From the NCBI RefSeq assembly GCF_036237275.1, contig NZ_CP108352.1:4526001-4590000 (forward strand): a stretch of 64,000 nucleotides of DNA, read 5' to 3'. The notes under the pieces are model-generated. The model had not been told where the DNA came from, did not search any database, and worked only from the letters and a program-made list of their open reading frames with translations. The DNA is from Streptomyces sp. NBC_01353. Lineage in GTDB: Bacteria > Actinomycetota > Actinomycetes > Streptomycetales > Streptomycetaceae. Every line of letters begins with the position of its first letter. Positions within the stretch are counted from its first letter, which is position 1. The position numbers were made by a program, and so were the translations under genes. Below, in pieces: positions 43,687-46,461 of the stretch.

Positions 43687-44460
43687 GTGCACGTACTCAT
43701 TCTCGGCGGCACCACCGAGGCCCGCGCCCTCGCCACGGCGCTGCACCCCCGCGTCCGCGTCACCAGCTCCCTCGCCGGACGCGTCGCCGAGCCCCGGCTG
43801 CCGGCCGGCGAGGTACGCGTCGGGGGCTTCGGCGGCGTCGACGGACTCGTGGCCTGGGTGCGCGAGCACCACGTGGACGCGGTCATCGACGCCACCCATC
43901 CCTTCGCGGAGAACATCAGCTTCAACGCGGCCCGAGCGGCCGCCACCGCCCATGTTCCCCTGCTGGCCCTGCGCCGCCCCGGCTGGGTCCGGGTGGACGG
44001 CGACGACTGGCACGAGGTCGCCTCGCTGGAGGAGGCGGCGGGGGTCGTGGGGGACTTCGGCTGGGGGCACCTCCCAGGACGAAGTCCTAGGGGGAGGGTG
44101 TTCCTGACGACCGGACGGATGGGACTCGCCGCGTTCGCCGAGTGCCCGCAGTGGTTCCTCGTACGGTCCGTCGACGCCCCCCAGCCCCCGATGCCCGCCC
44201 GCACCGAAGTCCTCCTGGACCGGGGGCCCTTCACCCTGGAGGGGGAGTCGGAACTGTTGAGTCGGTACGGCATCGATGTCCTCGTCACCAAGGACAGCGG
44301 CGGCGCGGCGACGGCCCCGAAGCTCCGTGCGGCGAGGGAGGCGGGGGTCCCGGTGGTGATCGTCCGGCGGCCGGCGGTGCCGGAGGGGGTCGCGGTGGCG
44401 GGGACGGTGGGGGAGGCGGTGGAGTGGGTGGGGGTGGTGGGGGTGGTGGGGGGTTTCTGA
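43687..44460 (+). CDS. cobK: Precorrin-6A reductase
   Basis: A 257-residue NADPH-dependent reductase. N-terminus VLILGGTTEARALATAL, then VDAVIDATHPFAENISFNAA and DVLVTKDSGGAATAPKLRAA match CobK/CbiJ. GTG at 43687 with AAAGGA 5 bases upstream. Two oddities: an in-frame palindromic insert (44071-44096) codes the segment L-P-G-R-S-P-R-G-R in mid-protein, and the C-terminus trails off in a Val/Gly repeat (VGVVGVVGGF) coded by GTGGGG-type repeats. The accessory segment begins right after the stop codon. Confidence 0.9.
   Translation: MHVLILGGTTEARALATALHPRVRVTSSLAGRVAEPRLPAGEVRVGGFGGVDGLVAWVREHHVDAVIDATHPFAENISFNAARAAATAHVPLLALRRPGWVRVDGDDWHEVASLEEAAGVVGDFGWGHLPGRSPRGRVFLTTGRMGLAAFAECPQWFLVRSVDAPQPPMPARTEVLLDRGPFTLEGESELLSRYGIDVLVTKDSGGAATAPKLRAAREAGVPVVIVRRPAVPEGVAVAGTVGEAVEWVGVVGVVGGF
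44071..44096 (+). repeat. Palindromic element inside cobK
   Basis: CTCCC-a-GGAC-gaa-GTCC-ta-GGGGGAG forms a hairpin within the cobK frame. It resembles the element at 19207-19230 in the kinase gene; both keep the frame open. Confidence 0.55.
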
Positions 44461-44530
44461 GGTCTGTGGTCTGGGCGGGTTTGCGGGCTTCGGGTTTCTG
44501 AGGGGCCCGGCCTGGCGGCTCTTGTGGGCT

Positions 44531-44842
44531 TCTGGTGCGGCCGCCCTCGTTCCGAGTGTGGCGACCGGAGGCGGTGCGTCAAGGGCGCTCCTGCGTCGCG
44601 TCGCTGCGCGATTCCGCTTCGCTCCACCCTTGACCCACCGCCTCCGGTCGCCTTTTCACACTCGGAGGGCGGCCGGGGGGCGTGGCCGCGCGGGCAGGCG
44701 GGTTTGCGCCTCGGCCGGGATCGGCGCCTGCGGGTGCGTGGGTGGGTTTGCGCGGCAGTTGAATGGGGCGGCCCGGCGGCGCTCAGCGTGTGACCGCCGT
44801 CGGTCGGCCGGGACTCATGCCCCGCTGGTCACTCCCGGTGGG
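44531..44842 (+). repeat. Left copy of ~312-bp inverted repeat, containing a large hairpin
   Basis: This block recurs in reverse orientation at 45711-46026. Shared anchors: GGCCGCCCTC near one end, GGGCGCTCCT, GCGCTCCACCCTTGACC-type centre, TTTTCACACTCGGAGGGCGG, GCGCGGCAGTTGAATGG and, at the other end, CCCGCTGGTCACTCCCGGTG. Within it 44539-44585 and 44626-44674 are long imperfect inverted arms (about 47 nt each) that fold into one large hairpin with a loop of about 40 nt. Confidence 0.85.
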
Positions 44843-44868
44843 TGGTGAGGTGAGTTGGTGGGCGTGAG

Positions 44869-44956
44869 CGTCCCTAAGTCTCCCCAACTCGCCTCCGTCG
44901 GGCCCCAAAGGGCCCCATCCGGCGAAGTTACCGCGAGTAGTGGAGAGTTAGGGACG
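44869..44956. repeat. Long-range inverted repeat next to the left copy
   Basis: CGTCCCTAAGTCTCC (44869-44883) pairs with GGAGAGTTAGGGACG (44942-44956) with one mismatch, enclosing about 58 nt that itself contains GGGCCCCAAAGGGCCCC, a small hairpin. It lies between the left repeat and the lipoprotein gene. Confidence 0.55.
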
Positions 44957-45172
44957 GCAGTCGTTGCTCCGACGCCGCCCCCACCTCACGTGCCCGACCG
45001 CGATCGGCCGCTGTGGTTGCGGTACTTCGCTGCCGTACCGCCTCATGCCTCGTCAAGAGTGGCCGCCGACCACTACGACTTGAACGCGTTCAAACTCTGT
45101 GTCAGGGTGCGGCATGCGTTCTTGAGCTCACCGGTCGCGCACGCGGCCTGCGGAACCCGCTAGGGGTGGAGT

Positions 45173-45613
45173 GTGTTGCGTTCCTGTCGTACTGCGCTGA
45201 TCTTGCTCGCCTTGGCCGCTCTCACGGCTTGCGGCAGGCTCTACGACCTGCCGCCGCCTGAGGGCGAACCGGTCGTTCTGAAGCCGGCCGAACTTGCGAC
45301 CACATGGACCGATGGAGACGACGGCACCCTCACGCTGAAGCAGGACGGGACGTTCATCGCCGATAAAGTGTGCATCGCCGTCGGCTGGGAGGAAGGTTTG
45401 ACCTGGTCCGGAACAGGCACCTGGAAGCAAGGCTCCAACGAGAAGCAAAGCTTCGTCGGTGTGACCTTCGACGCCGCTCACCCCGAAACGGGTGAGCGGA
45501 AGCCCGACTCCTACGCCGCCTTGAGGCAAGGCAAGGCCCTGAAGCTCTGGGCCGCCGTCGGCGATCCGGACCACGATTATCCGAACTGCGTCCTGACCAG
45601 CCCGGCGAGTTGA
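45173..45613 (+). CDS. Small lipoprotein lying between the inverted repeats
   Basis: A 146-residue protein, GTG start at 45173 with GGGGTGGA close upstream. The signal peptide LRSCRTALILLALAALTAC ends in a lipobox (LTAC), so it is probably anchored outside the membrane. The mature part is beta-rich with DDGTLTLKQDGTFIADKV and TWSGTGTWKQG, a pattern of Streptomyces lipoproteins with lipocalin-like or glucanase-like repeats; I cannot name a family. Base composition is lower in GC than the cob genes, consistent with acquisition as part of the repeat-flanked segment. Confidence 0.75.
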   Translation: MLRSCRTALILLALAALTACGRLYDLPPPEGEPVVLKPAELATTWTDGDDGTLTLKQDGTFIADKVCIAVGWEEGLTWSGTGTWKQGSNEKQSFVGVTFDAAHPETGERKPDSYAALRQGKALKLWAAVGDPDHDYPNCVLTSPAS

Positions 45614-45710
45614 CCCGGCTGCCGCGCGGCCGGGTGACCTACACAGGGTCCGGCATCGCAGAAACGCGGTTCCAGCCGATCGTGTCCCCTGCCGTGAGGC
45701 AGGAGATCAG

Positions 45711-46026
45711 CCCACCGGGAGTGACCAGCGGGGCTTGAGTCCCGGCCGAACGGCGGCCGTCAGCCGCTGAGCCGTGCCCCGCCGCTCCATTCAACTGCCG
45801 CGCAATCCCGACGACTCGGCCGCAGGCGCTGAGCGGAGGCCAGGCACGAACCCAGCTCCCCGCGTGGCCACGCCCCCGGGCCGCCCTCCGAGTGTGAAAA
45901 GGCGGGTGGAGGTGGCGGGTCAAGGGTGGAGCGCAGCGGAATCGGCGGAGCCGACGCGACGTAGGAGCGCCCTTGAGGCGTCGCCGGAACCCGCCACACT
46001 CGGAGAGAGGGCGGCCGAACCAGAGG
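45711..46026 (-). repeat. Right copy of the ~312-bp inverted repeat
   Basis: Reverse-complement copy of 44531-44842, diverged but with all anchors kept in order. Its hairpin arms lie in 45879-46016 (GGCCGCCCTCCGAGTGTG at one end, CACACTCGGAGAGAGGGCGG at the other). The two copies are separated by 868 bp containing the lipoprotein gene. Confidence 0.85.
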
Positions 46027-46040
46027 CCGACGAAGGGCGG

Positions 46041-46178
46041 TCAACCGGTGAGCCCCGCGACGAATGTGGACCAGGCCTCGGGGGCGACCCCGAACGTCGG
46101 GCCGTCGGTGACCTTGGAGTCACGGAGGTGGACGGAGTGGGGGCAGGCGGCGACCTCGACGCAGTCGCCGCCGCCGGC
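46041..46178 (-). pseudogene. 3' fragment of a DUF397 gene
   Basis: Reading the minus strand gives GGDCVEVAACPHSVHLRDSK, then VTDGPTFGVAPEAWSTFVAG and a stop codon at 46041. This is the C-terminal half of a DUF397 protein, small Streptomyces proteins usually paired with an XRE regulator. The N-terminal half is missing; after about 46178 the frame continues into unrelated sequence. No start codon or ribosome binding site is left, and no XRE partner is present. Confidence 0.75.
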
Positions 46179-46461
46179 CGACGCCAAGCCGGCGAAGGAG
46201 GCCGACGCCTACACCGGTACGTACTCCAGTGACTACTACGGACAGTTGAAGGTCACCGCGGGCGACGACGGGCGGCTGACGCTGTCCTTGGGGCCGAAGC
46301 CCGAGACGTACCCGCTGACGCACTACGACGGCGACACGTTCAGCTTCGCGACGCGCGGCGAGAACGCCGTGGGTCTGACCGGGGTCACCTTCTCCCCGAA
46401 CGGGAAGTCCGTCCGCGTCGAGTATCTGGACACCACCGGCCTGGGGACCTCCACCCGTTGA
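46179..46461 (+). pseudogene. 3' fragment of a serine hydrolase gene (DUF3471 domain)
   Basis: The frame ending at 46461 codes ADAYTGTYSSDYYGQLKVTA, then LSLGPKPETYPLTHYDGDTF and a terminal VRVEYLDTTGLGTSTR. This is the C-terminal DUF3471-type beta domain that follows beta-lactamase-like serine hydrolases. The catalytic domain (S-x-x-K and Y-x-N) is absent. The fragment starts abruptly at the junction with the oppositely oriented DUF397 fragment, so both genes were cut at or near 46160-46180. Confidence 0.75.

Follow-up and report, generated by a model that had tools for sequence, protein, structure and literature searches.

The cobK-cobIJ locus of Streptomyces sp. NBC_01353 raises the question of what a pair of long inverted repeats, each with a large hairpin, is doing around a small gene. 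A first-pass annotation of the window (that is, of the whole 64,000-nt stretch of DNA analysed here) had described two reverse-complement copies of about 310 bp and had offered three readings of them: a non-autonomous mobile element family, a structured non-coding element family, or a structured RNA.

The inverted repeats between cobK and cobIJ

The two copies are readily recovered by alignment. Gapped alignment of 44520-44850 with the reverse complement of 45711-46035 gives 82% identity over 321 nt and a score of 315 bits, far above the best score, 32.8 bits, among 200 dinucleotide-block shuffles. The ungapped arm pairs are 44609-44842/45711-45944 (83%) and 44524-44603/45952-46031 (81%), and the inner arm pair is separated by 868 nt. 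Each copy has an outer hairpin of about 140 nt and, on its inner side, a conserved box of roughly 100 nt. The outer hairpin arms lie at 44541-44560/44657-44676 in the left copy and at 45881-45896/45995-46010 in the right copy, and the core of about 40 nt within each pair of arms is also structured; both the reverse-complement copies and the large hairpin described for each of them are therefore borne out. The left repeat matches copies elsewhere in its own genome at 99, 91, 89 and 86% identity and, in copies of the same type, reaches further outward, to about 44480-44490. The features of the element are given below; covariance models R1 and R2 were built with the window's own copies among their rows, so that the window scores by construction.

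44520-44850, plus strand: left inverted repeat, type LT, about 320 nt (alignment to right copy)
44541-44676, minus strand: left hairpin, minus being the putative functional strand (GNA loops, 3' end outward; repeats, folds, and R2 at 82.4 bits by construction)
44577-44582, minus strand: -35-like TTGACG in the 3' arm of the left hairpin (coordinates checked; family pattern)
44555-44560, minus strand: -10-like CACACT of the left hairpin at 16-nt spacing (xANNNT peak at 16/17)
44869-44956, no strand assigned: extra inner hairpin beside LT-type repeats, 24-nt arms (inverted-repeat search)
45173-45613, plus strand: cargo gene for a 146-aa putative lipoprotein (signal peptide with LTAC lipobox, by eye)
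45711-46035, minus strand: right inverted repeat, type RT (alignment to left copy)
45881-46010, plus strand: right hairpin, plus being the putative functional strand (repeats, folds, and R2 at 70.1 bits by construction)
45973-45978, plus strand: -35-like TTGAGG in the 3' arm of the right hairpin
45995-46000, plus strand: -10-like CACACT of the right hairpin at 16-nt spacing

A stretch resembling the extra inner hairpin is also present in loci L060, L061 and L063. The putative lipoprotein has no Pfam match. The first-pass annotation had called the framed gene lower in GC; the gene and its frame stand, with the correction that the interior between the repeats is 66% GC. No transposase is present among the ORFs listed at the element, and no target duplication was seen, in agreement with that annotation.

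The placement between cobK and cobIJ holds, with a correction on the right side. Pfam matches identify both flanking genes: cobK (PF02571), which ends at 44460, on the left, and cobIJ (PF00590) on the right. The right copy, however, adjoins not cobIJ but gene remnants, namely a DUF397 fragment (46041-46184, C-terminal part, with its stop at 46041) and a DUF3471 remnant (46189-46461), and cobIJ follows these. This debris at 46041-46461 suggests repeated rearrangement of the site. In relatives, 11 of 22 loci have both cobK and cobIJ, no more than about 750 bp apart, and the other loci may simply end too early; in the nine of the 22 loci given to model R2, no hairpin was found (0/9). Two relatives, compared by eye, suggest that an older serine-hydrolase-like gene once stood where the element now lies.

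Covariation, orientation and cargo of the hairpin family

The hairpin core is TCAAGGG ... CCCTTGA around up to three mini-stems. In a first alignment, both partners have changed in 12 of 24 consensus pairs. In a set of 43 sequences from which same-length sequences more than 80% alike had been removed, Watson-Crick pairing of the arms is 0.708 vs. 0.396 for shuffled arms (maximum 0.462 of 300), and pairing of hairpin c is 0.886 vs. 0.696 (maximum 0.762 of 500; 42 parsed), with shuffles that ignore relatedness. Hairpin b hardly varies (0.988 vs. 0.956; the highest shuffle also gives 0.988). In plasmid copies the two sides of the stem have changed in concert, to TCCAGGG/CCCTGGA and to TCAAGAA/TTCTTGA. 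We conclude that there is covariation in the hairpin arms and in one inner mini-stem.

The loops have a consistent form on one strand. Of 84 mini-stem loops, 50 read TNC on the top strand (GNA below) and seven read TNNC (GNNA below); the other 27 mostly reflect a stem walk halted at a mismatch. Mismatches in hairpin c include T.C and C.T on the top strand, corresponding to sheared-type G.A on the strand below, and its wobbles, which are few, lean the other way (4 G.T vs. 1 A.C). In the first alignment, the arms' G.T wobbles seemed to favour one strand strongly; this signal was gone after removal of near-duplicates (64 vs. 59), and UNCG tetraloops were set aside, the loops reading as symmetrical triloops or tetraloops. 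For the window core itself, the predicted fold is a rod with internal loops, not three mini-hairpins.

Within its own genome (8.57 Mb), the element has nine strong copies, arranged as four outward-facing inverted pairs and one solo copy, and model R1 counts a tenth, weaker match. The four pairs enclose unrelated interiors: a lipoprotein, a 96-aa protein of no named family, a GNAT acetyltransferase and an ankyrin-repeat protein. Across the genus, the repeat DNA was matched in 75 of 199 genomes at E<=0.001, many of these matches being short and weak and perhaps due to chance, and model R1, with at most 20 candidates scored per genome, matches 56 of 150 Streptomyces genomes, the own genome included. 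Among the matches listed for 120 pattern-fetched stretches, 29 of 30 neighbouring pairs less than 3.5 kb apart are outward-inverted; 28 of these listed pairs are from Streptomyces and one is from Nocardia (L260, 2.7 kb). Some pairs enclose only about 110-310 bp and no gene. The sole exception among the 30 pairs listed is in a Nocardia MAG (L229, 228-1149), where two hairpins 865 nt apart face inward.

Interior ORFs were listed for 26 elements, in some of which only one hairpin was located and a few of whose ORFs are doubtful; four elements gave no ORF. A Pfam scan of 20 cargo proteins (one of which, from L250, was added from a separate site comparison) gave matches for 14, one below the cut-off, and none for six, and no transposase, recombinase, integrase or relaxase is among the 14 matches. 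The absence of a transposase among these matches supports the earlier proposal that the element is non-autonomous.

At orthologous sites, the cargo differs between species, or is absent, or a single hairpin is located. Site X1 holds an aminotransferase in L150, a CYTH protein in L250, no gene passing the ORF filter in L234 and L243, and one hairpin in L203. Site X6 holds an aldo/keto reductase with, by eye, a TetR-like regulator in L133, and a 185-aa protein that by eye is membrane-like in L157. L157 and L148 have cargo (72% identity) and hairpins in common but no flank. The L121 site is empty in relatives: both flanks lie within 220 bp in 7 of 11 relatives, and a model search found a hairpin in none of the 11. 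L117 and L119 are 98.6% identical over 1149 bp; at the L117 site a hairpin is also found in 2 of 11 relatives, so that the identity may reflect gene conversion, and the case for L117 as a clean recent transposition is weakened. The spacers at the compared sites are too diverged to fix a target duplication or the exact element ends. We conclude that pair orientation is nearly fixed, that cargo varies and can be absent, and that some sites are empty in relatives. The proposal of an element family is thus upheld by many copies, covariation, variable cargo and empty sites; the outcome that the first-pass annotation had named as speaking against it, a block found only here, or arms that lack covariation and independent sites, is not what we find. 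As a separate observation, the L121 site of G074 is occupied by some other sequence of about 1 kb that has no hairpin (L295, about 400-1585), possibly a second kind of insertion there.

Promoter-like boxes and placement on mobile replicons

On the strand that carries GNA loops, the 3' arm of the hairpin opens with TTGAC or a near variant. This -35-like box is part of the pattern by which arms were selected, and only the -10-like box, xANNNT, is independent. Of 49 distinct arms (318 arms thinned at 70% identity), 35 have xANNNT 16 or 17 nt past the TTGAC-like box on the GNA strand. The box was chosen after inspection of plasmid arms, and the fairest controls are the other strand and other spacings: at spacings other than 16/17 nt it occurs in 0 to 10% of arms, and on the opposite strand at 16/17 nt in 0 of 49, with weak peaks at 21 nt (6/49) and 15 nt (4/49). 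In 2000 mononucleotide shuffles, 1.6 arms on average, and never more than seven, have the box. The box persists after stricter thinning (29/38 arms at 60% identity and 20/27 at 50%) and is found in 10 of 18 Streptomyces arms and 25 of 31 arms from other genera; four Streptomyces arms have it only at 19 nt. The first base of the -10-like box is T in just 2 of 35 arms (C in 15, G in 14, A in 4), and this rarity lowers our confidence in an ssDNA-promoter cassette and in its extension to Actinobacteria at large, both set out below.

Pairing within the hairpin is 0.45-0.71 over the -10-like box and just past it, vs. 0.78-0.88 just before it; pairing is also low directly after the -35-like box and moderate in mid-spacer. 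The start of the -10-like box is also where 15 of 80 5'-arm bulges fall. In the window hairpins, TTGACG or TTGAGG is followed after 16 nt by CACACT, and a 5-nt GAAAA bulge lies beside a -10-like box that is predicted to be paired. Judged by sequence pattern, the boxes appear to resemble those of the Frpo/ssi single-stranded-DNA promoters.

Beyond the genus, model R2, with at most 15 candidates scored per genome, has matches in 57 of 296 genomes from across the class, which come from 19 of 114 genera and include 10 Streptomyces, and in 6 of 198 genomes, including 2 Streptomyces, of a phylum sample. Outside Streptomyces the hairpin occurs as single copies on AICEs and plasmids; no outward pair within 3.5 kb was seen by eye for other genera in the R2 class list, and the Nocardia pair L260 is known from the pattern search. 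The order small ORF, hairpin, integrase, co-oriented with the GNA strand, is seen in three scanned loci (L336, which also has RepSA, L317 and L321) and, by layout alone, in several further loci; in a fourth locus (L316) the integrase lies on the other side of the hairpin. Searches of plasmids gave 4 and 21 records among 72,556, and 19 contexts were examined. A relaxase operon is in view in five of the 19, co-oriented with the GNA strand in every case (Gulosibacter, Cutibacterium, Arthrobacter, Micromonospora and Xylanimonas), and placement in the leading region of a conjugative element is possible for these five contexts; the Streptomyces pairs studied are mostly chromosomal. In one plasmid, a 'protein rep' gene, assumed to be of the rolling-circle type, lies about 220 bp downstream of the hairpin, and in two contexts the hairpin adjoins a DNA primase/polymerase gene; the remaining contexts have partition genes or nothing telling. 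Phages gave no match for the repeat DNA, and IMG/VR gave no exact match for the core pattern. Two further placements were observed. The linear Streptomyces plasmid NZ_CP109028 has a solitary hairpin about 600 bp inside its end (580-640 bp from the record start; L278, 4001-4061), and the core hairpin occurs on alphaproteobacterial plasmids of Acidiphilium and Lichenicola (L342, 4001-4046; L345, 4001-4052), the Acidiphilium copy with a compensatory stem change.

Competing explanations and known systems

We give about an even chance to the reading that the window holds a non-autonomous gene cassette with a putative ssDNA promoter or priming site at the 3' end of each strand, a reading drawn from sequence patterns. 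According to this hypothesis, the motif, when single-stranded, would fold into a double-stranded promoter usable by RNA polymerase, as in Frpo, ssi and sso elements, and RNA from the folded promoter would copy the strand's 5' side, priming synthesis of the complementary strand and possibly also acting as mRNA. In each paired hairpin the GNA strand has its 3' end outward, which would place one site at each strand's own 3' end, aimed inward; with such a site at each 3' end, either strand, once single-stranded, could become double-stranded, and its cargo be expressed, from the end inward. The fixed orientation of the pairs would be explained if single-stranded copies must be made double-stranded. 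The probable routes of spread would be single-stranded intermediates that other replicons produce and recombination of one cassette with another. A wider version of the hypothesis is possible but doubtful: in Actinobacteria there may be a distinct class of self-priming single-stranded gene cassettes, their hairpin being a general ssDNA promoter or origin of actinobacterial plasmids and AICEs, such that any ssDNA copy (from AICE, plasmid or chromosomal transfer) would become double-stranded and express its cargo at once, with possible shared ancestry or a shared binding partner with Streptomyces telomeres.

Movement of a long-TIR MITE or mobile insertion cassette in trans by a double-strand-DNA transposase, for which the hairpins would be terminal binding sites, is unlikely in our estimate. 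MITEs, mobile insertion cassettes and REPINs are non-autonomous intergenic inverted repeats that sometimes carry passenger genes, as here, and such an origin would account for the inverted pairs, the length of the inverted repeats, the cargo without transposase and the empty sites. It is at odds, however, with the lack of a target duplication or an autonomous copy among what was seen, and with the occurrence of the same core as lone copies, their arms unrelated, on the AICEs and plasmids of several genera, where it cannot be a paired transposon end; the -35/-10 pattern on one strand is likewise unexpected for transposon ends. The hairpin family also differs from MITEs and REPINs in having much longer repeats, single copies on plasmids and no link to Y1/RAYT as a mobiliser (PF01797 in 5/13 chosen carriers and 1/13 non-carriers; not associated). 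RepSA, present in 12 of 13 carriers and 12 of 13 non-carriers of pairs, is nearly universal and does not discriminate between them. The one-strand xANNNT peak at 16/17 nt is also what a single-strand origin or primase assembly site fails to predict. Such a site, recognised through its GNA hairpins by a primase or a Tap/telomere-like protein, the boxes being incidental, strikes us as quite unlikely, even though hairpins lie near rep, primase and relaxase genes and the loops have counterparts at replicon ends. Passages of one report describe GNA loops closed by sheared G:A at Streptomyces telomere 3' overhangs and draw a comparison with parvovirus rabbit ears (PMC4513846); over the last 400 nt of six replicon ends, with a seventh (G098) left out as non-telomeric, 25 of 31 outward-strand triloops are GNA. 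The cassette hairpins share with these overhang palindromes, as those passages describe them (PMC4513846), GNA-loop mini-hairpins on the strand whose 3' end faces outward, but they are internal rather than at replicon ends, have a different core and carry -35/-10-like boxes.

A structured RNA, which the first-pass annotation had entertained, or a bidirectional transcription terminator between convergent genes, is very unlikely. Several copies do lie directly after stop codons, and the predicted RNA fold is very stable; but many sites are co-directional by eye (a rule of convergent genes was rejected on this ground, several sites breaking it), the small loops are triloops rather than of the UNCG or GNRA kind, genes lie inside the pairs, and on AICEs and a plasmid single copies stand ahead of int or rep. 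Rfam at gathering thresholds gives no match at the element and below threshold gives only unrelated families there; together with the one-strand -35/-10 pattern and the GNA loops, which fit ssDNA better, this leaves the structured RNA unsupported. The only match at gathering score in the window, a cobalamin riboswitch (RF00174, 50339-50477, plus strand, 45.2 bits, near cob genes), lies away from the element, and the idea of a riboswitch at the element was dropped.

The ssDNA-promoter cassette can be set beside several known systems. Masai and Arai, in 1997, reportedly described Frpo/ssi single-stranded DNA promoters of F-type plasmids. According to passages of two further reports, a folded single strand acts as the promoter in Frpo, and the transcript copies that strand's 5' side (PMC9849209, PMC11541004). 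The likeness, drawn by description and for a putative activity, lies in a folded single strand that would rebuild -35 and -10, on mobile replicons and in some cases near conjugation or replication genes. Unlike Frpo/ssi, the hairpin family has a conserved core and GNA loops, is mostly actinobacterial, has a -10 that rarely begins with T, and in Streptomyces forms inverted pairs around chromosomal cargo. Sites of the sso type, such as pIJ101 sti as presented in part of one report (PMC4170104), would similarly convert rolling-circle ssDNA, and hairpin copies lie before a rep gene and in AICEs; pIJ101 itself, whose sso is known, lacks the hairpin motif, and its sso was rejected as a relative. Integron cassettes are small accessory genes without a mobility gene that have a folded single-strand site (attC), and in both respects resemble the present cassettes; compared by description, they differ in that here there are two inverted sites per cassette, scattered loci and no integrase platform seen. 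Among the top-ranked literature matches listed, none describes the motif as judged by title and abstract opening, and the matches listed by a literal-string search were all unrelated by title.

If the ssDNA reading is true, the element would be a new kind of gene cassette, able to travel as single-stranded DNA, and Actinomycetota would gain a family of ssDNA promoters or origins present on plasmids and AICEs of several genera. The shuffling of accessory genes (GNATs, glyoxalases, regulators, a reductase and lipoproteins) between Streptomyces chromosomes without a visible transposase would be explained, and early expression and second-strand synthesis after actinobacterial DNA transfer would become testable with one short sequence.

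Two minor observations concern other sequences. At the left end of an assembled chromosome (G000 C1; L303, about 1-110), a long C run is followed by further sequence, which we take to resemble a nanopore barcode adapter. Inside the cobK coding region of the window, at 44060-44099, is a palindrome of about 40 nt, of the GGGGGCACCTCCC...GGGGGAGG type. The own genome has similar stretches at five further positions, and where relatives match cobK over its full length, the match falls about 20-30 nt short on the palindrome-containing query; this is a dispersed palindromic repeat inside a gene.
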